Positions 2,263-31,365 of a DNA stretch of 64,000 bases are shown here, piece by piece. Both the position numbers and the translations under genes were made by a program. The notes under the pieces are model-generated. The model was given only the letters and a program-made list of their open reading frames with translations. It did no database searches and was not told the origin of the DNA. Within the stretch, counting starts at the first letter, position 1. Each line of letters opens with the position of its first letter. The DNA comes from Microvirga sp. (lineage in GTDB: Bacteria; Pseudomonadota; Alphaproteobacteria; Rhizobiales; Beijerinckiaceae): contig NZ_JACXAB010000001.1 of assembly GCF_014699075.1 (NCBI RefSeq), positions 310,001 to 374,000 of the forward strand, in the 5' to 3' direction.

Positions 2263-2264
2263 GC

Positions 2265-4665: not shown

Positions 4666-4712
4666 CACAGCAGTCGCTTGACCTCGTGTCGGAACTGTTC
4701 CTGGAGGCTCCC

Positions 4713-6271: not shown

Positions 6272-6345
6272 CGGCTTCCGGTTCGTTGCACCGAGAGACG
6301 ATACAGGTTGGCTAAACCAGTACTCGATAGCTTTGGATAGGGACG

Positions 6346-11720: not shown

Positions 11721-11734
11721 GGCAACTCCATCAT

Positions 11735-13000: not shown

Positions 13001-13008
13001 GAGTGACC

Positions 13009-13548: not shown

Positions 13549-13642
13549 ATCTTACCTGCATATCTGATGAGGGCGCGGCTTTCTCATCCGCGCCGAAGGA
13601 AGATGAAGATCCGATGCTTTCCGTCGGATCGCACGGCACTCG

Positions 13643-14659: not shown

Positions 14660-14739
14660 GGCGTCATTTCTCCCGAAAAGATGTTTTGCTCTTTCCGGAT
14701 GAAAAAATCCGTCATACATATGATGTGGTCAAATCATAA

Positions 14740-14758
14740 TTTTGATGTTTTTTGATGT
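14740..14758. promoter_or_regulatory. Tandem direct repeat TTTTGATGT in the LacI/TRAP control region
   Basis: TTTTGATGT occurs at 14740-14748 and again at 14750-14758, ten bases (one helical turn) apart, just upstream of the LacI-type start; TGATGT recurs at 14721. The region between the divergent starts (14660-14764) is clearly A/T-rich compared with its surroundings. This may be a regulator site, but LacI proteins usually prefer palindromes, and I see no long one here. Confidence 0.25.
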
Positions 14759-14764
14759 AACAAC

Positions 14765-15820
14765 ATGAGTGTTCTTGTTGATCTTCCGTCCTTCAGCCGG
14801 CGCGTCACCATCGTGGACATCGCGCGCCTGGCCGATGTGTCCACCGCCACCGTCGACCGGGTTCTGAACGGCCGACAGGGCGTCAAGGCGGCGACTGTCA
14901 AGCGGGTCATGAAAGCCGCCGCTGAACTCGGCTATGTGGACGAGAGCGACGAGCGGATCCGTGACGTGCGGCCGCTCGCGCAGATTTCGTTCATTCTTCC
15001 CCAGGGCACGAACCGTTACATCACCATGCTCGGCCGCATGATCAGCGAGATGGCGCCACAACTGGAGCGCTTCTCGATCAAGCCCACAGTCGAGTATATC
15101 GACAGCTTCAATCCGGACCTGCTCGCGAAGACGCTGCACCGCCATGCCAAGCATGCGGACGGAATAGCCTTCATGGCGATTGAGCATCCGGTGGTGCGTG
15201 AGGCCGTCAATCGCATCACCGCCGCAGGGAAGCCTGTGGTGACTTTGATCTCCGATGTCGCCAGTCCGACGAGAACGGCCTATTTCGGCCTCGACAATCG
15301 GGCTGCAGGGCGCATGGCAGGCTATCTTCTTGCACGCTTCATCGCTAAACGGCCGGCCAAAGTTGCCATGATCGCCGGCAGTCTCAGCTACCGCGCTCAT
15401 GGGGAGCGCGAGATGGGCTTCCTCGACATCCTGCAGGAACTCTATCCTGACATTGAAGTGGTCGGCCTGCGCGAAGGACATGACGACGAGGCGCTCAACT
15501 ACCGGCAGATGCGGGCGCTTCTCTCCCACCATCCTGATCTGGACGGGATCTATAATATCGGTGGTGGCGCTTCCGGCATCGGCCGCGCGCTCAAGGATGC
15601 ACGGCGCGAGAAGGACGTGGTCTTCGTCGGCCACGGGCTGACCAGCGATACGCGCGAGTTCCTGCTCGATGGAACAATGGATGCCGTGATTACCCAAAGC
15701 GCCGAGGACACCATCGCCAAATGCGCTGCCCTGTTCCGCGACCTGCGGGAGGGGCACAAGCCCAGCAAGCAGCCTAACCCGATGCGCGTCGAAGTCGTCT
15801 TCAGGGAGAACCTGCCCTGA
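14765..15820 (+). CDS. LacI-family transcriptional regulator
   Basis: A 351-residue LacI/PurR-type regulator. The N-terminal helix-turn-helix VTIVDIARLADVSTATVDRVLNG is close to consensus (the VD variant of VSRVLN is common in sugar/inositol-type regulators), with hinge helix at about residues 45-60, followed by a periplasmic-binding-protein-like ligand domain (NIGGGASGIGRAL, VFVGHGLT). It resembles the subgroup that has sugar-binding-protein-like domains. The gene is divergent from the DctP-VOC-RLP-kinase operon and precedes DctQM, so it probably controls both with the substrate or a phosphorylated intermediate as ligand. Confidence 0.92.
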   Translation: MSVLVDLPSFSRRVTIVDIARLADVSTATVDRVLNGRQGVKAATVKRVMKAAAELGYVDESDERIRDVRPLAQISFILPQGTNRYITMLGRMISEMAPQLERFSIKPTVEYIDSFNPDLLAKTLHRHAKHADGIAFMAIEHPVVREAVNRITAAGKPVVTLISDVASPTRTAYFGLDNRAAGRMAGYLLARFIAKRPAKVAMIAGSLSYRAHGEREMGFLDILQELYPDIEVVGLREGHDDEALNYRQMRALLSHHPDLDGIYNIGGGASGIGRALKDARREKDVVFVGHGLTSDTREFLLDGTMDAVITQSAEDTIAKCAALFRDLREGHKPSKQPNPMRVEVVFRENLP

Positions 15821-15883
15821 CGGCGAGCACCCACAACGTTGAATAACAATAACCAGATAGAGACAAGAGCGACGGAGGAGACA

Positions 15884-17752
15884 ATGACGATGGCAACAGA
15901 AAGCATCGGCGTCGGTGAAATCGAGGACATGCCGACCGGTCTGAAAAGCGGCTCAGCGCTCCTTAAGCCCATTGAGATGATAGCTTCCGTCATCCTGGTG
16001 GTGATCATCGGCCTCCTCCTGATGGGCGTCACCTCGCGCTATGTCCTTTCGCTCCCCATCGTCTGGATCGATGAGGCGGCCGCTTTCTGCTTCCTCTGGC
16101 TCGCAATGCTTGGTGCAGTCATTGCTATCGATCGCAATGAGCACCTCCGTCTGACCCTCTTCCTTCATATGCTCCCAGAAAAGCTGCGTGGCTTCTTCGG
16201 CGCGCTTGGGCCGCTTCTCGTTGCGGTCTTTCTGATGGGCATGTTGTGGCCTGCCATCGAGTACGTCATCGAGGAATCATACATCACTTCGGCAGCGCTC
16301 AATATTCCCATGAGCTGGCGCGTGGCCGCTCTTCCGGTCGGGATCGGCCTGATGGCGCTCCTGGCACTCAGGGAGACGGTGCGTGCTGCCAAGGCAGTTG
16401 AAATCGCGCTGGCGGCGTCTGTCATCGCAGTTGCAGGCGCTCTGCTATGGCTTGCCTCCCCGTCCCTGCCCTCGCTCGGCTATATCAACATCCTCATCTT
16501 CCTCGTGGGCTTCGTTGCCTTCTTCCTCGCCATTGGTGTGCCGATTGCTTTCTGCTTCGGTCTCGGTGCACTCACCTTTCTGACCTTTACCAGCTCGGTC
16601 CCGACCATGGTGATGATCGGTCGAATTGACGAGGGCATGTCGAGCCTGATTCTGCTGTCGGTGCCGATCTTCGTGCTCCTCGGCTGCATCCTGGACGCCA
16701 CCGGCATGGGCCGGGCTATCGTCGAGTTCCTCGCCTCCCTGCTCGGGCACGTGAAGGCCGGCATGTCCTATGTGCTGCTCGGCTCACTGTTCTTGGTCTC
16801 CGGCATCTCCGGCTCCAAGGTCTCGGACATGGCCACGGTCGCTCCGGCGCTGTTTCCGGAAATGAAGCGGCGCGGGCACAAGCCCAAGGAGATGATCGCG
16901 CTCCTCGCGACCGGTGCGGCCATGGCCGACACGGTGCCGCCTTCGATCGTGCTGATCGTGCTCGGCTCGGTCGCGGGCGTGTCGATCGCCGGACTATTCA
17001 CGAGCGGCTTCGTCATCGCCATGGTGTTGCTCGTGGTGCTCGCCATCCTCGCACGCTGGAAGGCGCGGGGCGAAGTCATGGAAGGGATCCGCCGGGCTCC
17101 CCTTCGGGTGATTGGCAAGGCGCTGGCGGTGGCCGCTCCGGCCTTGGTCCTGCCTTTCCTGATCCGCAGCGCAGTCGGCGGCGGCGTGGCAACGGCCACC
17201 GAAGTCTCAACCATTGCCGTGCTTTACGCTCTCATCATCGGCATGGTCCTCTATGGTGGAATCCGCCCCAGCAAGATCTATGACATGCTGGTCGAGACAG
17301 CAGCTCTCTCGGGCGCCATTCTGATTATCCTGGGCACGGCCTCTGCCATGGCCTGGGCACTGACCCAGACCGGCTTCGCCTTCAAGATGGCCGCACTGGT
17401 CACTGATCTTCCGGGGGGCTGGGTCACCTACATGCTCGTGACGATTGCAGTCTTCATGGTGCTCGGCTGCGTATTGGAGGGGCTGCCGGCCATTGTCTTG
17501 ATGGCACCCATCATGTTCCCGATCGCAAAGACTCTCGGGATCAACGATATCCACTATTCGATGGTGGTAGTGACGGCCATGAATGTCGGCCTGATGGCGC
17601 CGCCCATCGGCATCGGGTTCTATATCGCCTGCAAAATTGGCAACGTCTCGCCGGATGAAGCGATGGGCGCCATCTGGCCCTACATTGGCGCGCTCTTCGT
17701 TGGGCTCCTTGTCATCGCTATGATCCCGGCGCTGTCGACAGCTTACCTTTAA
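15884..17752 (+). CDS. TRAP transporter permease, fused small and large subunits (DctQM), cluster 1
   Basis: About 622 residues, with a DctQ-like four-helix part (about 35-190; IVWIDEAAAFCFLWLAMLG is a typical DctQ motif) fused to a DctM-like domain (about 200-622) with repeated TM helices. ATG 15884 has GGAGGAG three bases before it; the in-frame TTG at 15839 lacks a ribosome binding site. DctM motifs include SGSKVSDMATVAPALFPEM, ADTVPPSIVLIVLG and LMAPPIGIGF. With DctP encoded divergently it forms a sodium-driven acid importer. It is a clear paralogue of the DctQM at 25826-27697, and blocks of the DctM half are almost identical. Confidence 0.93.
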   Translation: MTMATESIGVGEIEDMPTGLKSGSALLKPIEMIASVILVVIIGLLLMGVTSRYVLSLPIVWIDEAAAFCFLWLAMLGAVIAIDRNEHLRLTLFLHMLPEKLRGFFGALGPLLVAVFLMGMLWPAIEYVIEESYITSAALNIPMSWRVAALPVGIGLMALLALRETVRAAKAVEIALAASVIAVAGALLWLASPSLPSLGYINILIFLVGFVAFFLAIGVPIAFCFGLGALTFLTFTSSVPTMVMIGRIDEGMSSLILLSVPIFVLLGCILDATGMGRAIVEFLASLLGHVKAGMSYVLLGSLFLVSGISGSKVSDMATVAPALFPEMKRRGHKPKEMIALLATGAAMADTVPPSIVLIVLGSVAGVSIAGLFTSGFVIAMVLLVVLAILARWKARGEVMEGIRRAPLRVIGKALAVAAPALVLPFLIRSAVGGGVATATEVSTIAVLYALIIGMVLYGGIRPSKIYDMLVETAALSGAILIILGTASAMAWALTQTGFAFKMAALVTDLPGGWVTYMLVTIAVFMVLGCVLEGLPAIVLMAPIMFPIAKTLGINDIHYSMVVVTAMNVGLMAPPIGIGFYIACKIGNVSPDEAMGAIWPYIGALFVGLLVIAMIPALSTAYL

Positions 17753-17948: not shown

Positions 17949-18806
17949 TCACCGCCCGGTCTCCTCAATCACAAGCTCGAAGGTGATGCATACAGGATTA
18001 TCACCACGAACGATTTCTCCAGAGGCGATCGCTCCGTCCATGTCGACGACATCAAGGTTTAGCCGTGCCTGCCCGTGCCCGTCCTCACTCGTGAAGTGGC
18101 CGTCGCGGATCTGGACCTCGGTGGCATGTGAGTCCACCCGCGTTCCGTCGACGAAGCGCACGCCATTCAAACTACCAATCCCGTAGATATTCGCTCTTGC
18201 TATTCCCTGGCGTATGCAGATCTCTTCGATGGCAAGGCTGATGTCCCGATTGGGACGCACTTTTGCAAGCAGCACTTGCCTGCCTGTCTTCGTGGAGACC
18301 TTTCCAGAATTTTGAACCGGTTCGAAGAGGGTGAAGTTCGTCTCCTTGTCGGACATGGCCTCGAAGGTCGCATCCCTGAACCCGATTCCCTCCACCTTAA
18401 TGGGCTCCGCGACTCTGGACAAGGGAGCAAGCATGTGGCCCATCCGCGGCCCCTCCCTCGTGTCCCAGAGACCGTGGCAATGGAGAAAGGTCTTTCCGTC
18501 CCGTACGCCGACGATCGCGCAGGCGCGCGTCACATTCACAGGCCCGTCCGGTTCGAAGGTCTCACTGTACCAAGCCACATAGCGTGGATCGGATGATGCG
18601 GCAGGCATCACATATCGGAACGGTTCGCAGCGGCCGCCCCGGAATTCCACGAATCCGCCGATGCAGCCACTCCCCCTCATTCCTGCCGCAACTGCCTCGT
18701 CGATTGTCAGACCGGGCTCCAGCACAAAACGGATCGGCACCGCCTCGCCCGTCACGGCGGCAAAACGTTCCGCAGCAACCGGCCCCGGATGATCGATGCG
18801 TCTCAT
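17949..18806 (-). CDS. Two-domain PCC/DUF296-like protein (fused form)
   Basis: A 285-residue protein of unknown function made of two PCC-domain-like halves. The N-terminal half (about 1-165) has HPG near the start and the metal-site-like pattern LHCHG (H109, H111) followed by GHML (H124), matching the HxH...GGH motif of DUF296/PPC domains. The C-terminal half (about 170-285) resembles the separate 130-residue protein encoded at 20589-20981, ending NPVCITFELVIEE where that protein has NPICMTFEVTLEE. The N-half likewise resembles the protein at 20974-21528. So the operon holds the same module once fused and once split. Last gene of the operon, overlapping the hydrolase gene by ATGA. A role in the pathway is certain only by context. 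Confidence 0.8.
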   Translation of the reverse strand: MRRIDHPGPVAAERFAAVTGEAVPIRFVLEPGLTIDEAVAAGMRGSGCIGGFVEFRGGRCEPFRYVMPAASSDPRYVAWYSETFEPDGPVNVTRACAIVGVRDGKTFLHCHGLWDTREGPRMGHMLAPLSRVAEPIKVEGIGFRDATFEAMSDKETNFTLFEPVQNSGKVSTKTGRQVLLAKVRPNRDISLAIEEICIRQGIARANIYGIGSLNGVRFVDGTRVDSHATEVQIRDGHFTSEDGHGQARLNLDVVDMDGAIASGEIVRGDNPVCITFELVIEETGR

Positions 18807-19711
18807 GATCGGCCCTCCTCCCGCAGCCCTGAGTCGGTCCGCATGATCTGGTTCGGGTCGGCTCGCGGGTCCCGCGCTCCCCAGCGCCCCGCCTCCACCC
18901 GTGTGACGAATTCCGTCATAAGTTGGTTGAACAGGGCCGGCTCTTCAAGATTCAGGGTGTGACCGGATTTGGGAAGCATGGCCAGACCGGAACGTGGGAT
19001 CGTCCGCTTCAGGAAGATGCCCGGTTGGATCGAGTGATCGTCCTCGTCGCCGACCACGATGAGTAGCGGCACCTCAAGAGCCGCCAACTCGGCCTCTAGG
19101 TCATAGAGCGACGCCCGCCGCATCTGCACGCCGCGCATGGTATTGGCGGCACCCTTGTCGGAATGCTGCGCCATCCGCTCTACAAAGAGCTGCCAGCCCC
19201 GTGGGTCCTTCTCCTGAAACTGCACCCTCGAGGCGCTCTCCCCGTAGACCGGAGCAAACGCCCGCGCGCCACGCTCTTCGAAGCTTCGCGCCACCTGCTC
19301 GGAATTGCGGCGGAAAAACTCCTGATGCTCCCTCTCCGAGCCATATCCCGCTCCCGCGATGACGGCGGACCGAATGCGATCGGGATAGCGCAGAGCGGCA
19401 TGGAGGCAGGCGAAAGCCCCCATAGAGAGGCCGACGATATGGGCGCTGTCGAGTCCGGCTGCGTTCATGATGTCGATGATGTCATCGGCCGCGCGGGCCT
19501 GGGAGTACTTCTCCACATCCTCGGGAATGCCCGACGGCGGATACCCGCGGGCCGAGAAGGTGACGCAAAGGTGCCTGCGCGAAAAGTAGCCGACCTGAGG
19601 CTCCCAGCTCCAATGATTCCCGCCGAACTCGTGGACGAACACGATGGGTGTGCCCGTTCCGGTAGATTCGTAGAAGAGCCGCACGCCGTCGCTCGTAGTT
19701 GCAAATGCCAT
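18803..19711 (-). CDS. Alpha/beta-fold hydrolase
   Basis: A 302-residue alpha/beta hydrolase. The oxyanion region is FVHEFGGNHWSW, the nucleophile elbow is GLSMG, the acid is probably in VVGDEDDHSI and the catalytic His in KSGHTLNLEEP; all three are in the expected order. Substrates of this fold include esters, lactones, enol-lactones and C-C bonds. The C-terminal 30 residues after the core are polar and unusual (RADPNQIMRTDSG). Position between an SDR and a PCC protein in the IclR/TRAP operon suggests ester, lactone or CoA-thioester cleavage in the same pathway. Confidence 0.88.
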   Translation of the reverse strand: MAFATTSDGVRLFYESTGTGTPIVFVHEFGGNHWSWEPQVGYFSRRHLCVTFSARGYPPSGIPEDVEKYSQARAADDIIDIMNAAGLDSAHIVGLSMGAFACLHAALRYPDRIRSAVIAGAGYGSEREHQEFFRRNSEQVARSFEERGARAFAPVYGESASRVQFQEKDPRGWQLFVERMAQHSDKGAANTMRGVQMRRASLYDLEAELAALEVPLLIVVGDEDDHSIQPGIFLKRTIPRSGLAMLPKSGHTLNLEEPALFNQLMTEFVTRVEAGRWGARDPRADPNQIMRTDSGLREEGRS

Positions 19712-19723
19712 CAGGCTCCTCCG

Positions 19724-20527
19724 TCAACGGAACTCGGAAACGGCGCAACTCTGCCCACCGTCCACAGGCAGGCAGACGCCCGTGATGAACTGCGCCTCAT
19801 CGGAGGCTAGGAACACGGCGGCATTGGCGATGTCCCAGGCGGTTCCCATCCTGCCGACCGGAACGGCCGCGTTGCGTGCCGCCACCATCTCCTCCACAGA
19901 GCCGTATTGCCCGGAGATCTGGCGATAGATCAGCGGCGTGTCGATAAGGCCTGGCATGATGCAGTTGGCGCGGATGCCCTGGCGGGCATATTGCATGGCG
20001 AGTGCCACGGTGGCCTGGTTCACCGCCGCCTTGGTGGCGTAGTAGGCGAAATAGGGATAGCCCGTCCATCGGATCGCCGCGAGGGAGGAGATGTTGACGA
20101 TGGCGCCACCGCCCTGACGCAGCATGTGCGGGATGACGACCTTCGCCGTGCGGTAAATGGGGCCGATGTTCAATTTGAGCGCGGCCTCGAACTGCTCTTC
20201 GCTGAGCTCGACCGGCCCTCCCATATGTGTGACGCCGACGTTGTTGTGCAGGATGCTGATGCCCCCGAGACGCTCGACGACCTGCGCTACCGCGCTCTCA
20301 ACCGAGCCCGTGTCGGTGACGTCGGCCGCAACGGCTACGGCCTCGCCGCCTTCACCTGCAATAATGGATGCGGTTTCCTCTGCGGCCTCCTGCACCAGGT
20401 CGATGCAGGCGACGCGAGCCCCTTCCCGTGCATAGGCGGCAGCAGCAGCCTTACCGTTTCCCCATCCCGGACCCGAGGACCCTGCCCCGAACACGATGGC
20501 AGTCCTGCCCTTCAGACGATCAGCCAT
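19724..20527 (-). CDS. SDR-family oxidoreductase (second of the operon)
   Basis: A short-chain dehydrogenase of about 267 residues. The nucleotide motif is GAGSSGPGWGNGKA, an extended form of TGxxxGxG; NNVG follows at about 90, the catalytic Ser lies in NISSLAA and the YxxxK pair in YYATK. The end VDGGQSCAV is typical of SDR C-termini. I chose ATG 20527 with GGAG four bases upstream over the ATG at 20542. It probably oxidises a secondary alcohol or reduces a ketone with NAD(P). It lies between the PCC pair and the hydrolase. Confidence 0.9.
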   Translation of the reverse strand: MADRLKGRTAIVFGAGSSGPGWGNGKAAAAAYAREGARVACIDLVQEAAEETASIIAGEGGEAVAVAADVTDTGSVESAVAQVVERLGGISILHNNVGVTHMGGPVELSEEQFEAALKLNIGPIYRTAKVVIPHMLRQGGGAIVNISSLAAIRWTGYPYFAYYATKAAVNQATVALAMQYARQGIRANCIMPGLIDTPLIYRQISGQYGSVEEMVAARNAAVPVGRMGTAWDIANAAVFLASDEAQFITGVCLPVDGGQSCAVSEFR

Positions 20528-20588
20528 TGATCTCCGCTCCATTTCCCAAGACCAATGCCGCAGGCGCTACCGCCACGGCGCTAGCCGT

Positions 20589-20981
20589 TCACTTCGCAGG
20601 AAGCCACTCCTCAAGGGTGACCTCAAACGTCATGCAGATCGGGTTCAAGCCAGCGACGAAAGGTCCGCCGTAGACATTCCCCTCAGGGTCCGCCACGACA
20701 CCTGTGAGTGCTGCCCTGAGCGAGCCGTCCTCGCCTAAGCGAACTTCGCCCGCCAGGCTGACAATTTCCACAGCGGGACCCTGAATCTGGAGGTACTTGC
20801 CATCGATCGTACCCATGCAGGCATCCACGAGGCTTCCCAGCGCTCCACGCACGAATGCGTTTCTGAAACCTTCGGCAAGACACAGCTTCTCCACGCCTTG
20901 GACGAGATCCTCGTTGGGAGCGATCCTGGCGTAGGCCACGCGACCCATTGAGCCGTTCTCGACTGCGATCATCTCACCCAT
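20589..20981 (-). CDS. PCC/DUF296-like protein, C-half type (split form)
   Basis: About 130 residues. ATG 20981 overlaps the end of the preceding PCC gene (ATGGGTGA contains both start and stop), which supports this start over an upstream in-frame codon at 21056. The protein resembles the C-terminal half of the fused protein at 17949-18806: RIAPNEDLVQGVEKLCLAEG against VRPNRDISLAIEEICIRQG, and NPICMTFEVTLEEW against NPVCITFELVIEE. The HxH...GGH motif is lacking, so it may be a non-catalytic or differently acting partner of the N-half protein encoded just upstream. Function unknown; coupled translation suggests a complex. Confidence 0.78.
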   Translation of the reverse strand: MGEMIAVENGSMGRVAYARIAPNEDLVQGVEKLCLAEGFRNAFVRGALGSLVDACMGTIDGKYLQIQGPAVEIVSLAGEVRLGEDGSLRAALTGVVADPEGNVYGGPFVAGLNPICMTFEVTLEEWLPAK

Positions 20982-21528
20982 TGATCGTTTCCTTGTATGG
21001 TTGAAGAAGCGGAATGTTCGTCTCGGGATCGTAGGCCTGCCGGAGTTCGAATTCATCGAGTGAGGTGACGAGAACCGGGATCGGATCGCGGCTGACGATG
21101 CAGGTTTCCGTCAGGATGTGACCACCCTTGACCTCACCGGTTTCGGTGCGGATCGCAGCATGGCAATGCACGAGCGGCGAGCCATTGATGCTCTTTCCGA
21201 GCGTCGCATTGCCGAAGATCATATACGTGCGGCCGGCGGGGATCGGCTTGGAATAGGCGATCACGGCTCGCCCCTGCTGATCGGGAGGTGCAACGCAATA
21301 CTGAACTCCCTCGAAATAGCCGCCGAGGATTGTCGTCGAGGCAGACGTGATCCCGATATCCGCCAGTGGCTTCACGAGGCCGTCGAAGAGGCTCACGCCG
21401 GGCAACAGAGCCAGTCGGACATGCCGCCCTTTGGAAGAGTGAAGACTTTGGATGCGGACTGGGTTGAACCGGCCGGGGTGGATCAGGGTACGCGGCCGGG
21501 GCAGTTGCGTCGTGACTACCCGCTTCAT
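20974..21528 (-). CDS. PCC/DUF296-like protein, N-half type (split form)
   Basis: A 184-residue protein with the DUF296/PPC-like pattern VHCHA (H121, H123) and GGHIL (H137), expected to bind a divalent metal in the family fold, and an N-terminal HPGR segment shared with the fused protein at 17949-18806. The ATG at 21528 shares its A with the stop codon of the gamma-carbonic-anhydrase-like gene (TGATG), and its end overlaps the C-half gene, so the three are translationally coupled. PPC domains occur in plant AT-hook proteins and in stand-alone bacterial proteins of unclear activity. Use in a CoA-linked catabolic operon suggests an enzymatic role, which is my inference. Confidence 0.78.
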   Translation of the reverse strand: MKRVVTTQLPRPRTLIHPGRFNPVRIQSLHSSKGRHVRLALLPGVSLFDGLVKPLADIGITSASTTILGGYFEGVQYCVAPPDQQGRAVIAYSKPIPAGRTYMIFGNATLGKSINGSPLVHCHAAIRTETGEVKGGHILTETCIVSRDPIPVLVTSLDEFELRQAYDPETNIPLLQPYKETING

Positions 21529-22070
21529 CAGGAACCTCTCGAGGCAGGTGCGAGCTCGCGCACATACCGGCGCCAGCGCCTGACGTAGAGAGCCGCACCC
21601 TCGGTCAGGTTCTGCACGCCGGCGTCATCGACCTCGCGGACGACACGGCCCGGGACACCCATGACAAGGGAATTGTCGGGAATGACTTTGTTCTCGGTGA
21701 TCAGCGTGTTCGCGCCGATCAGGCAGTTCCGGCCGATCCGCGCTCCGTTGAGGATGGTCGAGTTCATGCCGATCAAGGTGTTTGAGCCGATGGTGCAGCC
21801 ATGCAGCATCACCTTGTGGCCGATCGTGCAGTCCTCACCGATCGTCAGCGGAAATCCGGGATCGACATGGAGTACGCAGTTGTCTTGGACATTGCTGCGT
21901 TCGCCGATCTCGATGATGTCGTCGTCGGCTCGCAACACCGTGCCGAACCAGATGCTGGCCTCGCGCTTGAGGCGAACGTTGCCGACCAGAACGGCACTGG
22001 GGGCAATCCAGTATTCGCCCTCCGGGGGAAGGACAGGTGCCGCTTCAGCAAGCGAGAACAAATGAGTCAC
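21528..22070 (-). CDS. Gamma-carbonic-anhydrase-like hexapeptide-repeat protein (PaaY/CaiE type)
   Basis: A 180-residue left-handed beta-helix protein with hexapeptide repeats ([19 protein letters not shown] onwards). Three His residues that would bind the metal in gamma carbonic anhydrases are present ([15 protein letters not shown]). I start it at GTG 22070 with AGAAGG seven bases before; the open frame continues upstream to 22655 but there overlaps the SDR gene out of frame. Relatives include carbonic anhydrases, CaiE and the thioesterase PaaY of phenylacetate degradation. In an operon with a CoA ligase and thiolase a thioesterase or hydratase role is more likely than CO2 hydration. Confidence 0.85.
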
Positions 22071-22081
22071 GTTTGAGCCTT

Positions 22082-22876
22082 CTATGCCTGGACAGGTGGG
22101 TCGAAAGCGGCGGACGGCTTGCCGATGATGCCCGCGGCCGTAAACCCGCCATCGACGCAGATCGTCTGGCCGGTCACGTAGCTGGACTTGCGATTGTCGA
22201 GGAGAAAAATGGCTGCCCCTGCGATCTCGGTCGGGGATCCATAACGCCGCTGCGGCACGGTTGCCATCCAGGCGTCCCGCACTTCCGGTGTATGGATCTC
22301 CTGCACGAGCGGCGTCTCGATTGGACCGGGCGCGATCGCGTTCACACGAACGCCGACGGAGGCCAACTCGACCGCCATGACCTTGGTCATGGTGATCACG
22401 CCTCCCTTGGAGGCGCCATATGCGACGCGTCCCTTGTTGCCCATGACTCCCGAAACGGACGCGATGTTGACGATTGAGCCTGCGCCGCGCTCGCGCATGT
22501 GCCTGGCCGCCTCCCGCGAGACCACGAAGCTGCCGATCAGGTTGACCTCCAGCATCTTCCGGAAGAGATCGACGCTCGTGTCGAGTGCCGGAACGTCGCG
22601 CCCGATGCCAGCCGAATTGACGACCCCGGTCAGGGGTCCGAACTCCGCCTCGCATCGCGCGATCGCGGACACAACAGCGTCCTCATGCGCGACGTTCATC
22701 TGCTCGTACCGAACGCGGTCGTCAGGTGCCCCGAGCGAAGCGCGGCATCGACCGAGGCTTTCCTGATCCAGGTCCGCGACGACGACGCGCCAACCCTCCG
22801 CGAGGATCGCTTGGACGACCGCAAGGCCGATGCCCGACGCTCCGCCGGTGACCAGTACCGTCTGTTCTTGATTCAT
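22082..22876 (-). CDS. SDR-family oxidoreductase (first of the operon)
   Basis: A 264-residue classical short-chain dehydrogenase: cofactor motif TGGASGIG at about 11-18, NSAG at about 88, catalytic Ser in NIASVSG, YGASKGG for the Tyr/Lys pair, and PGPIETP after it. Together with the acyl-CoA ligase and thiolase it would fit as a 3-hydroxyacyl-type or alcohol dehydrogenase. It is 55 bases behind the ligase gene and 11 bases ahead of the gamma-carbonic-anhydrase-like gene. Confidence 0.92.
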
Positions 22877-22931
22877 GTCCGCCTCTCCCGCAGTAGGGCC
22901 AGTCGTGCTTCAGGAAGTATGCCGTCTCGGC

Positions 22932-24569
22932 TCAGGCCGAGGCCTGAGCGGGTCGGTCGAGAGGCAGGCAGCCGCGCACTTCGAGTTCGGCCCGGACATC
23001 CTTCTTGGTGATCTTGCCGTACGCGGACTTTGGCAGGGCATCCCAGAAGAACACCCGCTTTGGAAGCTTGTAGCGGGCGACCTTACCTTCGAGCCACGCC
23101 AGGAGTTCCGGCTCGTTGAGCGTAGCGTTCGGCCGCAGCACGCAGACCGCTACGCCAACCTCACCCCAGGTCTTGTCCGGCACGCCGAGGATTGCGACCT
23201 CCGCGATGGCCGAGTGCGTCAGGATTTTCTCCTCCGTCTCGCGCGGGTAGACGTTCGAGCCGCCGGAGATGTACATGTCGGAAGCACGTCCGGTGATGTA
23301 GAGAAACCCTTCCTCGTCGAGGTGGCCGAGATCGCCAGTCCGGAACCAACCGTCCCGGAAGGCCTTCGCGTTGGCATCCGGGTTGTCGTAGTAGCCGGCG
23401 AACACGGCCGGACCGCAGACGCAGATCTCCCCAGTCTGGCCTGCCTTGAGTTCGCGGCCTTGGTCGTCCTGGATCGATACCTGCATCCCCGTGCGCTCGT
23501 AGCCGCACGTGCCCACCTTTACGCCGGGCGCATCCTCAGTGTCGTGGAGCGCGGGCGGAAGCACGGTGATGTTCCCGGTGACCTCGCCAAGCCCAAAGTA
23601 TTGGACCAGGACCTTTCCGAGCTTTTTCAGCGCGTGCTTCTGGTCCTCCCGGTACATGGGCGCACCTGCGTAGATTACGTAGCGCAGCGACGAGTGATCG
23701 TGCGCGTCCACCGAAGGATGCTCAGTCAGCATCTTTACGATGGTGGGGACAGTGAACATGTTGGTGATGCGCCAATGCGCGACCAGTCCCCAGGCCTCGT
23801 CGGCATCGAACCGGTCGCTCTTGAGCAGGACAGTCTTGACACCCCGCGCCACTTGCACGAGCTGGTGAATGCCTGCCCCGTGCGAGAGTGGCGCCAGGAC
23901 CAGAGAGGCGTCCCGATGCGTGGTGCCTGGCATCAGGTCGCAGAGATGGTTCGTAATCACGAAGGCCATTTGGCCATGGGTGAGAACGGCGGCCTTGGGA
24001 CGTCCCGTCGTGCCCGACGTGTAGAAGAACCAGCACGGATCGTCGTGCTCGACGGACGCCATCGGTACGGTCTGCCCGGAGTGCTGTGCGACGAGGGCAT
24101 CGTAATCCTCGCCGAATTCTGACATCCCGATGGAGATGACGAAACGAATATTCGGCGCGGCCTCACGCGCGGCGGCGACATGGTCCGGGAAGTCGCAATG
24201 GCAGATCATCGCGGAGGCACCGCTCGACCGGGCAAGATAGGCGACTTCGCCCGGAGTTTGACGGTAGTTCGTTGGCACCCAGACCGCACCAAGCCGGAAG
24301 CTGGCGAACATCGACTCAAACATCTGGTTGCCGTTCTTGGACTGCACCAGGATGCGGTCGCCCTTTTTCACGCCCCGGGCGGCCAGCGCCGCCGCCATGG
24401 CGTCCACACGGCGGTCGAGGTCGGCCCAAGTCCAGGTATCCTCCCCCCGAACGAAGCCGATTTCTCCGCCATACCGCCGTGCCACCTGACGCAGGAAGTG
24501 GGAGAGGTTCATGACACGCTTGGAGACGGGTGCAACGCCGCCGATGGGAGCTTGACCGAGACTCGTCAT
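22932..24569 (-). CDS. Acyl-CoA synthetase / AMP-dependent ligase (ANL family)
   Basis: A 545-residue adenylate-forming enzyme activating a carboxylic acid to its CoA thioester. Motifs in order: the P-loop-like YTSGTTGRPKAA, then LGEVTGN, GEICVCGPAVFAGYY, the hinge GWFRTGDLG and the C-terminal catalytic Lys in YGKITKKD. Length is normal for medium/long-chain or aryl-CoA ligases; the substrate is not readable. Its ATG overlaps the thiolase stop (ATGA), so ligase and thiolase are coupled. It is the entry enzyme if the TRAP-imported acid is degraded as a CoA ester. Confidence 0.93.
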   Translation of the reverse strand: MTSLGQAPIGGVAPVSKRVMNLSHFLRQVARRYGGEIGFVRGEDTWTWADLDRRVDAMAAALAARGVKKGDRILVQSKNGNQMFESMFASFRLGAVWVPTNYRQTPGEVAYLARSSGASAMICHCDFPDHVAAAREAAPNIRFVISIGMSEFGEDYDALVAQHSGQTVPMASVEHDDPCWFFYTSGTTGRPKAAVLTHGQMAFVITNHLCDLMPGTTHRDASLVLAPLSHGAGIHQLVQVARGVKTVLLKSDRFDADEAWGLVAHWRITNMFTVPTIVKMLTEHPSVDAHDHSSLRYVIYAGAPMYREDQKHALKKLGKVLVQYFGLGEVTGNITVLPPALHDTEDAPGVKVGTCGYERTGMQVSIQDDQGRELKAGQTGEICVCGPAVFAGYYDNPDANAKAFRDGWFRTGDLGHLDEEGFLYITGRASDMYISGGSNVYPRETEEKILTHSAIAEVAILGVPDKTWGEVGVAVCVLRPNATLNEPELLAWLEGKVARYKLPKRVFFWDALPKSAYGKITKKDVRAELEVRGCLPLDRPAQASA

Positions 24570-25735
24570 TTGCGCCGTTCCAGGATGGAAACGTAGTTGG
24601 CGACGGCCGCGCCGCCCATGTTGAAGACGCCCGCGAGTTTGGCGTCCGGGATCTGCATGTCGCCAGCCTGATTCATGAGCTGGAGGCAGGCCATGATATG
24701 CATCGACACGCCGGTGGCGCCGATTGGATGGCCCTTCGACTTGAGGCCGCCGGATGGATTGATCGGCAGGCGGCCGTCTTTCTCGGCGATGCCCTCCCGC
24801 ACGATGCGGTAGCCCTCGCCTGGTGCGGCCAATCCCATCGCCTCGTATTCGATGAGCTCGGCGATGGTGAAGCAGTCATGGGTCTCCACGAGATCGAGGT
24901 CGTCCAGTGTCACGCCTGCATGAGCCCGCGCCTTCTCCCATGCCATCCGTGCACCGGCAAAGGCCGTCGGGTCGCGTCGCGATAGGGGCAGAATGTCATT
25001 GACATGCTGGCGGGTGCGGAAGGCAATTGCCTGCTGGAGCCGTTCGGCCGTCTCCTCGTCGGCCACGACGAGCGCAGCTGCTCCATCCGAGATCAGTGAG
25101 CAGTCGGTCCGCCGCAGCGGGGCCGCCACATAGGGGTTCTTGTCGGAGACCGCATTACAGAACTCAAAACCGAAGTCGCGTCGCATCTGCGCATAGGGAT
25201 TTGCGACGCCATTCCTGTGGTTTTTGGCGGAGATGCGAGCAAGTTCCTCGCTTCGGTCGCCATAGCGCTGGAAGTAGTTCTGGGCGATCCGGCCAAACAC
25301 CCCGGCGAAGCCGCCATCGATGTCGGCCTCTTCCTTCCTGTAGGAGGCGCTCAGCAGGATATCGCTGGTTTCAACCACAGACTTGGCAGTCATCTTCTCG
25401 GCTCCGACGACGAGAGCGATGCGCCCGCGTCCGCTCTCGATGAAGTCGAGGGCTGTGTAGATTGCGGCCGACCCGGTCGCGCAGGCATTCTCCAGACGGG
25501 TCGACGGGACGTGGGCGAGAGCCGGCTGATCGAGCGCAACCTGAGCGGCCTCGAATCCCTGTTTCGAGAAGCCGTTGTTCATGACACCGACGTAAATCCC
25601 ATCGACATCCTCAGGTCCAACCCCAGCGTGAGCGAGGGCCTCACCCGAAACTCTGGCCATCAGGCTTTCGACATCGGGATCTTCCAGTTTGCCGAAGGGC
25701 GTATGGGCCCAGCCAACGATGCAAGCACGTGCCAT
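24566..25735 (-). CDS. Thiolase-fold protein, SCP2/acetyl-CoA acetyltransferase-like
   Basis: A 389-residue thiolase-superfamily protein. The nucleophilic Cys is in ENACATGS, the His in THDCFT, and GGLKSKGHPIGATG carries the second His. The C-terminal Cys of classical thiolases (CxGGG) is missing: the protein has FNMGGAAV there. This matches the SCP-x/lipid-transfer-like thiolase group often found in steroid, terpenoid or other degradative operons, whose members may cleave or condense, and sometimes act as aldolases with a DUF35 partner. No DUF35 gene is nearby. It is the first enzyme gene behind the TRAP genes. Confidence 0.9.
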   Translation of the reverse strand: MARACIVGWAHTPFGKLEDPDVESLMARVSGEALAHAGVGPEDVDGIYVGVMNNGFSKQGFEAAQVALDQPALAHVPSTRLENACATGSAAIYTALDFIESGRGRIALVVGAEKMTAKSVVETSDILLSASYRKEEADIDGGFAGVFGRIAQNYFQRYGDRSEELARISAKNHRNGVANPYAQMRRDFGFEFCNAVSDKNPYVAAPLRRTDCSLISDGAAALVVADEETAERLQQAIAFRTRQHVNDILPLSRRDPTAFAGARMAWEKARAHAGVTLDDLDLVETHDCFTIAELIEYEAMGLAAPGEGYRIVREGIAEKDGRLPINPSGGLKSKGHPIGATGVSMHIMACLQLMNQAGDMQIPDAKLAGVFNMGGAAVANYVSILERRK

Positions 25736-25825
25736 ATATGCAATTCCTTCAATCTATGATCGTGTGAAAGCGTTGTCGTAAGTTTCCTGGCCGGGCAGCC
25801 CTGACGGACCGTCCGACGGTGATCA

Positions 25826-27697
25826 TCAGAGGAGTCCGACTGAAACCCACGGCACCGTAGCGATGATGATGAGGCCCACGAGAAGCGCGACGAGGTAGGG
25901 CCAAATCGCGCCGATGGCTTCATCCGGCGGGACGTTGCCGATCTTGCAGGCGAGATAGAAACCTACCCCGATCGGCGGCGCCATGAGGCCGATGTTCATC
26001 GCAGTCACGATGACCATCGCGTAGTGGATGTCGTTGATTCCGAGGTTCTTCGCGATGGGGAACATGAGCGGAGCCATGAGCACGATGGCAGGCAGGCCCT
26101 CGAGCACGCTGCCCAGGATCAGGAAGACCACGATGGTCACGGCCATGAACGAGAGCCAGCCGCCGGGCAGCCCCGTCATGAATGTCGCGAGGCTCTGGGC
26201 AACGCCCGCCTGTGTGATTGCCCACGCCATCGCAAGGGCGGTGCCGAGGATCAGCAGGATCGAACCGGTGAGGGCCGCCGTTTCCACGAGCATGGCGTAG
26301 AACGTGCGCCATCCGATGCCCCCGTAGAGGACGATGCCGACGAACAGTGCATAGATCACCGCAATGGTCGACACCTCGGTAGCCGTCGCCACCCCGCCGG
26401 CCACCGTGCTGCGGATGAGGAACGGCAGAACGAGGGCAGGCGCTGCAACGAGGAGAGTGCGCCCCATCAAAGAGATGGGCGCCCGGCGCACCTTGGACAT
26501 GTCTTCGTGCCGGCTCTTCCAACGAGCCAGGATCGCCAGGACCGCGAGCAGGACCATGGCGACAACGATGCCGCTGGTGAACAGGCCCGCGATGGAAACG
26601 CCCGCGACCGAGCCGAGCACGATCAGCACGATGCTGGGCGGCACGGTGTCGGCCATGGCAGCGCCCGTCGCGAGCAGTGCGATCATCTCCCGCGGGCTGT
26701 GGCCGCGCCGCTTCATCTCCGGGAACAGTGCAGGAGCGACTGTGGCCATATCGGAGACCTTGGAGCCGGAAATGCCGGAGACCACGAAGAGCGAGCCGAG
26801 CAGCACATAGGACATGCCAGCGCGGACATGGCCGAGCAGCGAAGCCAGGAAATCGATGATGGCCTTCCCCATGCCGGTGGCATCGAGGATGCAGCCCAGG
26901 AAGACGAAGATCGGAACCGACAGCAGGATGAGGCCGGACATGCCCTCGTCCATTCGGCCGATCATGACGAAGGTCGGGACCTGCGTCGCGAAGGCAAGGT
27001 AGCTCAGCGTGCCGATTCCGAAGCAGAACGCGATGGGAACGCCGGCGACGAGGCATGCGGCGACGAATACCACGAGGAAGAGAACGATCTTGGCATTGCC
27101 GAGTCTGACGAGGGAGGGCGAGAAGTACCACAGCAAGCCGGCGATCACGGCAATTGCGAGGGCCGAGATGATCAGGTCGCGCCACGTTGAAGTCCGGAGG
27201 GCATACGCGAGAACGATCCCCAGCATGGCTATCATGCCGAAAGGAATGGCGGCCGCGCGGAAGGTATTCGGGATTTCCAGTGCGGCAGTGGTGATATACC
27301 ACTCCTCCATCGCATAGTCGAAGGCCGGTGCGACGAGCGACAGAAGGAAGGAGACGATTACCAGAAGTCCGAAGGTCTCCACGAACCGCTGTACCCGTTC
27401 CGGCATCATGTTGAGGAACAGCGTCAGCCTGAGGTGCTCGTTGCGGTCGAGTGCGATCGCGGACCCGAGCATCGCCAGCCACAGAAAGCACAGCGATGCG
27501 ACTTCATCGATCCACACCACCGGAAGCGAGAATACATACCGGGAGATCACGCCTGCCAGCAGCAGGACAATGATGGCCACGAGCAGCGCCGACGAGATAA
27601 TTTCGAAGGGCCTGAGAAGGCGGGAGCCCTGCCGGACTTCGCCTTCGACGACGGGCAATGATTCCGGCGCGGCGAGTACGTGTGCAGAGGAAGCCAT
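25826..27697 (-). CDS. TRAP transporter permease, fused DctQM, cluster 2
   Basis: About 623 residues, DctQ part first (VWIDEVASLCFLWLAMLGS) then DctM (SGSKVSDMATVAPALFPEM, ADTVPPSIVLIVLG, LMAPPIGVGF). ATG 27697 has AGGAG ten bases before it; in-frame sequence continues upstream to 27850 but is polar and not conserved-looking. The protein is closely related to the DctQM of cluster 1, more so in the DctM half than in the loops, so the two clusters share a transporter ancestor. It follows its own DctP gene, an order opposite to cluster 1 where the two are divergent. Confidence 0.93.
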   Translation of the reverse strand: MASSAHVLAAPESLPVVEGEVRQGSRLLRPFEIISSALLVAIIVLLLAGVISRYVFSLPVVWIDEVASLCFLWLAMLGSAIALDRNEHLRLTLFLNMMPERVQRFVETFGLLVIVSFLLSLVAPAFDYAMEEWYITTAALEIPNTFRAAAIPFGMIAMLGIVLAYALRTSTWRDLIISALAIAVIAGLLWYFSPSLVRLGNAKIVLFLVVFVAACLVAGVPIAFCFGIGTLSYLAFATQVPTFVMIGRMDEGMSGLILLSVPIFVFLGCILDATGMGKAIIDFLASLLGHVRAGMSYVLLGSLFVVSGISGSKVSDMATVAPALFPEMKRRGHSPREMIALLATGAAMADTVPPSIVLIVLGSVAGVSIAGLFTSGIVVAMVLLAVLAILARWKSRHEDMSKVRRAPISLMGRTLLVAAPALVLPFLIRSTVAGGVATATEVSTIAVIYALFVGIVLYGGIGWRTFYAMLVETAALTGSILLILGTALAMAWAITQAGVAQSLATFMTGLPGGWLSFMAVTIVVFLILGSVLEGLPAIVLMAPLMFPIAKNLGINDIHYAMVIVTAMNIGLMAPPIGVGFYLACKIGNVPPDEAIGAIWPYLVALLVGLIIIATVPWVSVGLL

Positions 27698-27810
27698 ATC
27701 CAATGCTCCTTTGGATTTGTCGGGATCCCGTCCGATGGAGGGAGGGTCATCCACGGAGGGGACGACCCTGAGACCTCTAATGCAGCGGCGTGATCGCTGA
27801 CACTGACGCG

Positions 27811-28830
27811 CTACGCCAGGGTGCCGACGGATTTCTCGAGGATTGCCCAAGCCTCGTCACCGTACTTGCCCTTCCATTCGGCATAGAACCCGGCTTGGCG
27901 CAGCTTGTCGCGGAACGGCGCCGGATCGGGCTGGTTGATAACCATGCCCTTCGCGGCAAGCTCCTGCTGGAGGCTTGCATTGAGCTTGGCCACGTCCTCC
28001 CGCTCCTTCTCCGCCGCAGCATTGACATGCTTGGCCACGATAGTGCGGACATCCTGGGGTAGCCGCTCCCATGCGCGCCGATTGCCCAGGAACCAGAAGC
28101 CGTCCCACATGTGGTTGGTCATGGAGAGGTGTTTCTGCACCTCGAACAGCTTCGCCGTCGAGATGATCGCCAGCGGGTTCTCCTGACCGTCGACGACCTT
28201 GGTCTGAAGAGCGGTATAGGTCTCGTTGAAGTTGATCGAGGTGGGCGCAGACTCGAACGCCTTGTACATGGACGTCCAGAGCGGCGAGACCGGCACCCGG
28301 ATCTTGAAGCCCTTCAGGTCGTCGGGCGTGTTGATCGGCTTCGTCGACGACGTGGTCTGGCGGAAGCCGTTGTCCCAGATCTTGTCCATGACAACGAGGT
28401 TCACCTTGGCGATCTGCTGGCGGACATAAGCGCCCAGGTCCCCGTCCATGGCCTTCCAGACTGATGCGTAGTCCGGGAAGGCGAAGCCTACCCCGTTGAT
28501 GGAGGCGGCTGGCACGAGCGTTGACAGGATCAGCCCCGACAGAGTGAAGAACTCGACGCCGCCCGAGCGTACCTGGCTGAGCGTGTCAGTATCGGAGCCG
28601 AGCTGGCTGCTAGGGAAGATTTGCAGATCAAAACGGCCATTGGTCTCAGCCTTGATCGCCGCGGCCATTTCCTGAGCCCGCACGTTCATCGGATGGGTTA
28701 TGGGTAGGTTGTTGGCGTATTTGTACGTGAACTCGGCCTGCTGTGCGCGTGCGATGAACGGCGCCCCTACAACCCCGCCTGCGAATGCGGTTGAGCCGGC
28801 AATGAGCAGACGGCGACGAGAGATAATCAT
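27811..28830 (-). CDS. TRAP transporter substrate-binding protein (DctP family), cluster 2
   Basis: A 339-residue DctP-type periplasmic binding protein. The signal has twin Arg (IISRRRLLIAG) and a hydrophobic core ending IARAQQ. YKYANNLPITHPMN and LKGFKIRVPVSP match the cluster 1 DctP region by region, and the Arg in IRVP is the conserved carboxylate binder. First gene of the 11-gene operon, with a perfect palindrome at 28883-28899 in its leader. The imported compound should be a carboxylic acid, which the CoA ligase downstream then activates. Confidence 0.9.
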   Translation of the reverse strand: MIISRRRLLIAGSTAFAGGVVGAPFIARAQQAEFTYKYANNLPITHPMNVRAQEMAAAIKAETNGRFDLQIFPSSQLGSDTDTLSQVRSGGVEFFTLSGLILSTLVPAASINGVGFAFPDYASVWKAMDGDLGAYVRQQIAKVNLVVMDKIWDNGFRQTTSSTKPINTPDDLKGFKIRVPVSPLWTSMYKAFESAPTSINFNETYTALQTKVVDGQENPLAIISTAKLFEVQKHLSMTNHMWDGFWFLGNRRAWERLPQDVRTIVAKHVNAAAEKEREDVAKLNASLQQELAAKGMVINQPDPAPFRDKLRQAGFYAEWKGKYGDEAWAILEKSVGTLA

Positions 28831-29002: not shown

Positions 29003-29860
29003 ATGGAACACCCAAGGAGCACTTCAGCCAAGAAGGCCGTGCAGGTGATCGGCGATGCTGCTGCCGGTGGCGCTCAAAGCATTGACCGTGCCGCCACCCT
29101 GCTCCTCCTCGTCGGTCGAGCGGGGCCGTTCGGTGCTCGCCTCTCGGAGATTGTAGAGCAATGCGATCTTCCCAAGCCTACTGTCCGGCGGATGCTTCTC
29201 GCTCTCGTAAGAGCAGGCCTTCTCGACCAGGATCCAGAAACACGACGCTACTACATCGGACCTGAGATCTACGTTCTAGGCACCCTCGCAAGCGCTCGTT
29301 TCGGCATACATCCAATCTCTCTCCGTTCTCTCGTGCGGCTGAGCCAGGAGACTGGCGACACAGCCTTCCTGTCGGTCCCTCGAGGCGTCTACTCCATTTG
29401 CGTCCATCGCGAGGAAGGGCCGTACCCAATCCGGGTCCATGCGCTTCACGCCGGCGACCGCCACCCTCTAGGAGTAGGAGCCGGAAGTCTTGCCCTGTTG
29501 TCTGCCTTGCAGGACCATGAGGTGGAGGAAGTCCTGGCCGCGAACGCGGAAGTCTTAGCTGAGAAATATCCCAACCATTCGCCATCCGTACTCCGCACGC
29601 TCGTCCAGGAGACCCGGGCGAAGGGTTACGCGCTCAATCCGGGCCTGATACTCCAGAACTCCTGGGGTGTCGGCGTTCCCATCCGTGGTGTGGATGGCCG
29701 ACCTATCGGTGCGCTCTCCATTGCTGCGATCGAAAGTCGGTTGAGCGAAGCCCGCCAGAGAGAGATCGCTTCGCTTCTCAAGAAGGAAGCAACTTGGATA
29801 GAGATGCGCCTGAGCGAGGTCGGCACTACCGACAAGCCGTCGAGGAAAAAGACCAGATAA
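29003..29860 (+). CDS. IclR-family transcriptional regulator
   Basis: A 285-residue IclR regulator: winged helix at about residues 25-85 (SIDRAATLLLLVG, LSEIVEQCDLPKPTVRRMLLALVRAGLL), then the GAF-like effector domain (about 110-275; GDTAFLSVPRG, PLGVGAGSLALLSAL, GVGVPIRGVDGRPIGALSIAA). It has an unusually polar N-terminal extension of about 25 residues. The gene is divergent from the 11-gene TRAP/CoA operon and very likely controls it in response to an aromatic or other acid or its CoA ester. Confidence 0.92.
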   Translation: MEHPRSTSAKKAVQVIGDAAAGGAQSIDRAATLLLLVGRAGPFGARLSEIVEQCDLPKPTVRRMLLALVRAGLLDQDPETRRYYIGPEIYVLGTLASARFGIHPISLRSLVRLSQETGDTAFLSVPRGVYSICVHREEGPYPIRVHALHAGDRHPLGVGAGSLALLSALQDHEVEEVLAANAEVLAEKYPNHSPSVLRTLVQETRAKGYALNPGLILQNSWGVGVPIRGVDGRPIGALSIAAIESRLSEARQREIASLLKKEATWIEMRLSEVGTTDKPSRKKTR

Positions 29861-30584: not shown

Positions 30585-30863
30585 TCAAGCTCGATGCAGC
30601 CAAGTGCGGAGGCGGCCGGAATGGGGATCCCACCCAGCAATATCGTTGGCTTGGCCCCAGAGATCGACAATCAGGATCAGAGTGATGCGCTCGAGTTCCA
30701 TCTCAAATCTGAGATGCTCCTCAAAAGTGACGGTCTCTCCATCAGCCCACGCGACGCGGCCTGTGCGCGAAGGAAGTAGCATAAATAGGCTTTTGGACGC
30801 GACGCCGAGGTGGATGAGGATATTGACGTCCTCTACTGGTAGCGATGGATGCGCATAGAACAT
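30585..30863 (-). other. Unrecognised open frame between the two relics
   Basis: A 92-codon frame with protein-like composition (LPVEDVNILIHLGVASKS, FEEHLRFEMELERITLILIVDLWG). I do not recognise it and see no ribosome binding site. It may be part of a third decayed element gene, joined to the integrase relic by a deletion, or chance. Confidence 0.25.
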
Positions 30864-30888
30864 GCCAGAGAGGTACTCGGTGGTAAGA

Positions 30889-31365
30889 CCAGAGCGGCTT
30901 TAGGACCTCCAAGACGTGGTCCGTCGTCACTTGGTCGAAGGGGGCGCTGCGAATGGAGCTACAACGGGTCTGAAGTGTCATGCGCCATTGATCCCGGTGC
31001 TTCGGGTTCCGCCACCCGAGTTCCAGAGAGGCGATAACCTCATCAGCCATCTCACCAAAGGTTGGAATGGCTCGGGCGGCCTTCTTGGACTCAAGCGGGT
31101 TGCGGCCACTCGCGAGGATAGTTCGAGCCGCTGCGGTCAACTCTCGAGCTTGAGGGAGCGTCACTGAGTGAGCACTGCCGAGACCCATCTCCTTGAGTTT
31201 GCCGGGGCCTGCCTGCCCTGGCTCCCTTCATCGAAACAGAAAGACCCACCGGCGGCGTGAACCATCAGGCGAGATAGCGAGGCAAAGCCCCCCATCAGCG
31301 TGGCGGCTAGGTTATTTCAGTGTAGCGGCACTTCTTGCGGATCAGCGATTAACAGACCGCGCCAT
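30889..31365 (-). pseudogene. Tyrosine recombinase (P4/DUF4102-type integrase), decayed N-terminal two fifths
   Basis: Starting at ATG 31365 one frame reads like the N-terminal and core-binding domains of a prophage/island integrase: MARSVNR, then RHADGGLCLAISPDG, RRRWVFLFR, EMGLGSAHSVTLPQAREL, TFGEMADEVI, GWRNPKHRDQWRMTLQT and DQVTTDHVLEVLKPLW. Three in-frame stop codons interrupt it (31342-31344, 31312-31314 and 31228-31230; the last replaces what is usually Trp). Similarity ends at 30889 and the catalytic domain with the R-H-R-Y residues is missing. The gene is therefore inactive; it marks an old integrated element. Confidence 0.8.

Follow-up and report, generated by a model that had tools for sequence, protein, structure and literature searches.

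A conserved candidate operon linking paired PCC/DUF296 proteins to CoA-dependent acid catabolism in Microvirga and other Proteobacteria

The operon described here lies in a 64,000-nucleotide stretch of a Microvirga sp. genome (contig NZ_JACXAB010000001.1, positions 310,001 to 374,000; called the window below, with positions counted from its first letter). It comprises eleven genes read on the minus strand from position 28830 down to 17949. In this order they encode the DctP and DctQM proteins of a tripartite ATP-independent periplasmic (TRAP) transporter, a thiolase, an acyl-coenzyme A (CoA) ligase, a short-chain dehydrogenase (SDR1), a gamma-carbonic anhydrase (gamma-CA)-like protein, two proteins with a PCC (DUF296) domain (PCC1 and PCC2), a second short-chain dehydrogenase (SDR2), an alpha/beta hydrolase and a third PCC protein (PCC3). 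We found that, in most of the proteobacterial loci with PCC1 that we examined, the PCC1-PCC2 pair, or a PCC3-type fusion, is kept near the acyl-CoA ligase gene and mostly also near the gene for the SCP2-type thiolase. Based on gene linkage, domain architecture, motif conservation, the predicted fold and the near-absence of hydratase and acyl-CoA dehydrogenase genes, we suggest that the PCC proteins form a heteromeric metalloenzyme whose substrate is a CoA ester and whose activity is most likely that of an enoyl-CoA hydratase/dehydratase, and that the operon likely serves the import and degradation of a short branched acid. We give this reading a probability of about 0.35. The catabolic module is real and conserved; we regard it as a candidate for a new form of CoA-dependent acid catabolism and not as a new type of system.

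Linkage of the PCC genes to ligase and thiolase genes

The neighbourhood was followed in 74 loci obtained by a contig scan with the PCC1 alignment via two short peptide patterns; they are a sample and not a full census, and, as many of them come from near relatives (Achromobacter, Polaromonas, Agrobacterium), the counts are not independent events. The loci span Alpha-, Beta- and Gammaproteobacteria and two metagenome bins named 'Deltaproteobacteria'. By score thresholds, re-counted in six frames, the thiolase is present in 61 loci, the ligase in 61 and both in 60. A relative of SDR1 (at least 150 bits) was found in 58, which makes this dehydrogenase part of the core. Neither ligase nor thiolase is present in 12 loci, three of which (L061, L084 and L087) are on short contigs. 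A second set, taken from whole genomes of the same class, comprised 16 loci with the pair or a fusion; here the ligase (at least 638 bits) lies within about 10 kb in every case and the thiolase in 12. Retention of the PCC genes with the ligase and thiolase, on which the earlier note on this DNA had staked its proposal, is thus borne out. The order of the core genes varies, with 21 layouts among the 74 loci when truncated ones are counted. Achromobacter, for instance, has thiolase-ligase-SDR1-PCC1-PCC2, Variovorax has PCC1-PCC2-SDR1-thiolase-ligase, and Agrobacterium has a convergent layout that includes PCC3. PCC1 relatives are also found on 31 plasmid records. Of the three plasmids examined, two (from Bartonella and from Variovorax) have the pair together with a ligase, a thiolase-type gene, an SDR and TRAP genes, and the Phyllobacterium plasmid has a fused PCC gene with a ligase and an IclR gene.

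In the source genome (6.62 Mb, 101 contigs) there is one ligase above 250 bits and there are two thiolases above 500 bits, so we estimate the chance of such a gene lying within 10 kb at less than 1%. A second SCP2-type thiolase, 60% identical to that of the operon, is located at G000:C79:128997-130157. A six-frame search detected neither ligase nor thiolase near any of nine generic DUF296 loci, a small control in which L197 ends at a contig end (10.9 kb) and L222, with 36% G+C, is poorly gene-called. A linkage to the ligase as a general trait of DUF296 proteins was rejected on the basis of these nine loci.

The remaining genes are less constant. An IclR gene is present in 49 of the 74 loci, a window-type DctP in 46 and DctQM in 39; the IclR/TRAP part of the operon, which the earlier note puts in its heading, is thus present in the window but variable elsewhere. 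The note had further proposed that the imported acid is oxidised twice and finally hydrolysed. As a conserved logic this does not hold, since PCC3 (17 loci), gamma-CA (12), SDR2 (12) and the hydrolase (5) are accessory.

The two-domain PCC unit and its proposed reaction

PCC1 (20974..21528, minus strand) and PCC2 (20589..20981, minus strand, with the start at 20981 and not at 21056) are encoded by overlapping genes, and PCC2 is located directly 3' of PCC1 in 73 of the 74 loci; in the remaining locus the contig ends after PCC1. When genomes were searched with PCC3 (17949..18806, minus strand), its N-terminal half (residues 1 to about 175) and its C-terminal half (170-282) matched separate adjoining genes, including PCC1 and PCC2 of the window. 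We therefore read PCC3 as a tandem fusion of a PCC1-like N-half and a PCC2-like C-half. This search gave matches in 16 genomes; the source genome and the weakly matching G054 and G237 (E 7e-4) were not fetched, and the weak matches G178 and G133 of later searches were also left aside. The closest named relatives of PCC3 belong to Microvirga. A fusion stands in place of the pair, beside the ligase, in four of the 16 other loci (L109, L110, L111 and L195), and this alternation between split and fused forms argues that the two domains work together. The count of three PCC proteins in the earlier note is correct for the genes, but they appear as two copies of one unit, a split pair and a fusion, rather than as three different proteins.

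The two domains are diverged. PCC2 (57.9 bits) and PCC3 (35.1 bits) score above the cut-off of 25 for Pfam PF03479, while PCC1 alone is just under it with 23.4 bits. A motif of the form H-C-H...G-H is nearly invariant in PCC1 and in the N-half of PCC3, and PCC2 has no such motif. In PCC1 of the window, the predicted metal site corresponds to H-C-H...G-G-H (H121, C122, H123 and H137; 21118..21168, minus strand), and in PCC3 to H109, C110, H111 and H124. Five type-B matches carry H-G-H, and two database matches of PCC1 without the motif (P0127 and P0193) look truncated or frameshifted and were kept in the count. According to the structure models (pLDDT 84 for PCC1 and 92 for PCC3), the predicted fold of PCC1 and of the N-half of PCC3 appears to resemble acetolactate decarboxylase (ALDC, PF03306), and there is a possible likeness to its HxH...GGHVL-type motif. 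In contrast to ALDC, the PCC proteins do not match PF03306, their sole Pfam family at E 0.001 being PF03479, and they have CoA ligase and thiolase neighbours. A PDB sequence search with the PCC1 profile gave a best E value of only 0.06, a profile comparison of PCC3 with ALDC gave no usable result, and no PF03306 protein is encoded in the source genome.

A further hint to the reaction comes from more distant loci, among whose named relatives are Rhodospirillales, Kiloniellales and Rhodovibrionaceae. Ten of the 12 distant loci with the pair (L112-L121, but not L194 and L196) have a gene for an AcuI-family acrylyl-CoA reductase directly 3' of PCC2. The NCBIfam AcuI cut-off of 440 bits is reached by three of the six separate proteins scored (L114, L115 and L121), and the others are below it (L112, 438.6; L116, 430.9; L119, 419.3 bits). 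In L120, from a genome that is 70% complete, PCC2 and the AcuI-type reductase form one open frame of 467 codons (7859-9262), which scores 454.4 bits and thus above the cut-off. These loci resemble in this point the AcuI pathways for 3-hydroxypropionate, acrylate and dimethylsulfoniopropionate, but no AcuI-type gene of at least 50 bits was detected in the 74 window-type loci, the best score being 42 bits. Seven of the 13 loci L109-L121 also share an amidohydrolase gene (dihydroorotase-like in the three checked), which looks like a local gene order common to few families.

Seed profiles built from the source genome, which very diverged relatives could escape, gave over 90 loci only two matches for crotonase, one for MaoC and one for acyl-CoA dehydrogenase, and none in the window between 16001 and 31000. 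Thus, ligase, dehydrogenase and thiolase are present in the operon, and a known enzyme for water addition or double-bond introduction is not. An ordinary fatty-acid beta-oxidation operon was rejected, since these profiles gave no acyl-CoA dehydrogenase or hydratase. Operons for CoA-dependent beta-oxidation of short or aromatic acids likewise have a transporter, ligase, SDR and thiolase; here PCC1/PCC2 stand in place of acyl-CoA dehydrogenase, crotonase and MaoC. The hydratase activity proposed for PCC1/PCC2 concerns function alone and not membership in the crotonase or MaoC families.

According to our proposal, an acid would be taken up by the TRAP transporter and turned into its CoA ester by the ligase. 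PCC1/PCC2 would then interconvert enoyl-CoA and 3-hydroxyacyl-CoA by adding or removing water, with the H-C-H...G-H site of PCC1 binding a metal and with PCC2 completing the active site. The 3-hydroxyacyl-CoA would be oxidised by SDR1 and the resulting 3-oxoacyl-CoA cleaved by the SCP2-type thiolase. Where an AcuI-type gene is present, the enoyl-CoA would instead undergo reduction, as with acryloyl-CoA. In Microvirga, SDR2, the hydrolase, the gamma-CA-like protein and PCC3 may serve substrate-specific side functions. A single hydratase/dehydratase role would account for the ligase, AcuI-type, SDR and thiolase partners and for the missing hydratase at once. It is tempting to go further and to see here the first catabolic role of a PCC/DUF296 protein, namely an acyl-CoA hydratase (or enolate-forming lyase) that has two subunits, a metal and an ALDC fold and takes the place of crotonase or MaoC. 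The proteobacterial pathway would then be widespread, undescribed and directed at short branched or unsaturated acids; we consider this extended claim tentative and somewhat doubtful.

Substrate and alternative explanations

For the substrate we favour a short branched acid. SCP2-type thiolases act on 2-methyl-branched 3-oxoacyl-CoA, and for this reason tiglate or 3-hydroxy-2-methylbutyrate would fit. Genome G446 encodes a protein that shares 76% identity with the DctP of the operon and matches chain 4oan_A at 100%. We take 4OAN to be a Rhodopseudomonas palustris protein modelled with (S)-2-acetolactate; no paper naming it was found among the matches listed. In the Enzyme Function Initiative (EFI) screen, 2-acetolactate was found as a TRAP ligand, according to a review (PMC5812351). 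The 4OAN ligand was rejected as proof of the substrate, since no PCC gene adjoins the DctP in the genome concerned. In G315, one of 20 genomes fetched, a PCC3-ligase unit is present about 160 kb from the DctP. In the loci L154-L173 (the family of G315), DctP-DctQM adjoins a ligase-like gene in 19 of 20 cases without PCC genes, an arrangement that represents a second, simpler uptake-and-activation unit; the family of the ligase-like neighbour was checked in G446/L154 only and is PRK08162.

The fold leads to an unlikely but serious alternative, in which PCC1/PCC2 would act like ALDC and decarboxylate or isomerise a branched 2-hydroxy-3-oxo acid, so that the operon would degrade acetolactate, 2,3-dihydroxy-2-methylbutanoate or apionate-like sugar acids. 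Besides the fold likeness and the HxH...GGH motif, this is consistent with the 76% identity of the DctP over 339 aa to the protein matching 4oan_A, whose presumed ligand is acetolactate, and with the adjoining cluster (10434-17752), which has a RuBisCO-like protein and a DUF1537 kinase, nearest to OiaX and OiaK, and a paralogous DctP. It would also suit L071 and L044, where PCC1-PCC2 are joined with TRAP genes, a threonine-dehydrogenase-like medium-chain dehydrogenase/reductase, an SDR and pyruvate/acetoin-dehydrogenase-like E1alpha, E1beta and E2 genes (the families were checked directly in L071 and by clustering in L044). L071 additionally has a sigma-54 DhaR-like regulator. However, a decarboxylated product would have no carboxylate for the ligase unless the substrate is a diacid, and the AcuI-type partner would be left unexplained. 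Moreover, in G446 and 19 other genomes (20 of the 205 with matches) the fetched stretch around the close DctP contains no PCC gene, and in 19 of these 20 this DctP adjoins a more distant ligase (142-172 bits to that of the window). The cluster at 10434-17752 does not reach the OiaX and OiaK cut-offs. The hydratase/dehydratase reading explains neither the decarboxylase-like fold nor the role of the pair in L044 and L071, which have neither ligase nor thiolase. If PCC1/PCC2 were instead a metal-dependent thioesterase, lyase or isomerase of a CoA ester, the pathway logic would otherwise be unchanged; by itself, such an activity explains neither the AcuI-type partner nor the missing hydratase, and we judge it to have a minor chance of being correct.

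We consider it rather improbable that the operon acts on an aromatic acid and shortens its side chain through CoA-dependent beta-oxidation of the hydroxycinnamate type, with PCC1/PCC2 replacing the hydratase. The steps from ligase to thiolase would all fit the established pathway of ferulate beta-oxidation, and in the PDB the second-best match of the ligase is a feruloyl-CoA synthetase, although with a moderate score (274.8 bits). In L040 the pair has a gene for a LigM-type vanillate/3-O-methylgallate O-demethylase as its neighbour (628 bits against a cut-off of 580), and L038 has a clustered relative, but such a neighbour was seen in these two loci only and both are without window-type ligase and thiolase. 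The presumed 4OAN ligand, a small C5 acid, also speaks against an aromatic substrate. Least probable of all, and with only a slight chance, is a role of PCC1/PCC2 as DNA-binding or ligand-sensing regulators of the pathway. It is suggested by the database name 'DNA-binding protein with PD1-like motif' and by the effect of plant AHL proteins with a PCC domain on transcription. On the other hand, the metal-type motif is conserved in PCC1 only, the clusters have their own IclR, LysR or Lrp genes, and a natural PCC2-AcuI open frame exists. Further, the RGRP string, the AT-hook core that marks AHL-type DNA-binding proteins, is absent from PCC1, PCC2 and PCC3. The name 'DNA-binding' is probably misleading for these PCC proteins.

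PCC/DUF296 proteins are present in bacteria, archaea and plants. Compared with the generic members AF0104, PH0802 and VCA0587, those described here consist of two diverged domains, as adjacent pair or fusion, and differ by the cysteine between the two histidines and by the CoA-ligase linkage. Among the literature matches listed, in which subscription journals are partly covered, work on the PCC domain concerns mainly plant AHL proteins, and two bacterial omics papers (PMC10434189 and PMC4968806) mention such a protein once each. Vanilloyl-acetate degradation of the VceA/VceB type was considered as a further possibility; VceB is termed a thioesterase (PMC11837543). Within the same limits, no matching operon or pathway was found, in line with the earlier note, and no reaction of a bacterial PCC enzyme. 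The note gave the PCC proteins no assigned catabolic reaction, whereas the sequence motif, the predicted fold and the gene neighbours suggest a catalytic metal site.

Gene content of the window and meaning of the module

All eleven reading frames and that of the divergent IclR gene were confirmed, and the families are as the earlier note had expected. The IclR-family regulator (29003..29860, plus strand) is separated from the operon by 172 bases, and its NCBIfam matches of BhcR/PcaR type are under the cut-off. DctP (27811..28830; this and the following genes on the minus strand) matches PF03480 and has chain 4oan_A as its top PDB match (562 bits). The fused permease DctQM (25826..27697) matches PF04290 and PF06808, so that all TRAP domains (DctP, DctQ, DctM) are accounted for; an alternative TTG start at 27850 is possible. 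The thiolase (24566..25735; PRK07516, 675.7 bits, cut-off 412) has C85 and the motifs HDCF and GHPIGAT; the catalytic cysteine, HDCF and GHPxGAT are the signature of SCP2-type thiolases. The AMP-forming ligase (22932..24569) belongs to PRK07470 (996.8 bits, cut-off 774), a family name without substrate information. SDR1 (22082..22876, with GGASGIG and YGASK), SDR2 (19724..20527, ATG start at 20527) and the hydrolase (18803..19711, with a GLSMG elbow) all have their usual catalytic motifs. The hexapeptide protein resembling gamma-CA and PaaY (21528..22070, GTG start at 22070) is under both NCBIfam cut-offs (159.9 of 250 and 114.4 of 319.6 bits).

The statement that most junctions overlap or nearly do so is a fair description. 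Four of ten overlap (thiolase/ligase, -4; gamma-CA/PCC1, -1; PCC1/PCC2, -8; hydrolase/PCC3, -4) and two measure 11-12 bases (SDR1/gamma-CA and SDR2/hydrolase). Wider are ligase/SDR1 (55 bases), PCC2/SDR2 (61) and DctQM/thiolase (90), and the DctP/DctQM junction is about 113 bases with the ATG near 27697 or -40 with the upstream TTG start.

Adjoining the operon, the cluster at 10434-17752 encodes a DUF1537-type kinase (nearest to OiaK, 257 of 700 bits), a RuBisCO-like protein (nearest to OiaX, 412 of 700), a DctP 54% identical to that of the operon, a LacI regulator and a fused DctQM. It likely represents a separate acid-sugar pathway with a RuBisCO-like protein. A similar set adjoins the operon in L033 and L034 and is near the PCC pair in L092. 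Elsewhere in the window we noted a putative penicillin/acyl-homoserine-lactone acylase of 802 aa (7754-10162, by sequence appearance), an integrase fragment upstream of the IclR gene (30742-31188; central domain above the Pfam cut-off, arm-binding domain just under it), and a glycine/asparagine-rich, secreted-looking protein without Pfam match (32265-33182). In L095, L098, L105 and others, a LysR gene is divergent from PCC1 (nearest NCBIfam family AlsR, the acetoin regulator, with 245.9 of 430 bits in L095), and in other loci a gene of Lrp/AsnC type replaces it. Divergent to the PCC operon of L095 are putative genes for meta-cleavage of 3-hydroxyanthranilate (1559-8691, read from sequence starts).

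The module is important for several reasons. One subfamily of PCC/DUF296 proteins is tied by tight and repeated linkage to CoA ligase, SDR and thiolase genes, and the candidate metal site together with the gap in the pathway reduces a domain of unknown function to few assays on a two-gene construct. Further, the module recurs, in part on plasmids, in Proteobacteria whose names point to sources in soil, plants, the sea and the clinic, so that knowledge of its substrate would account for a nutritional trait that is widely shared.

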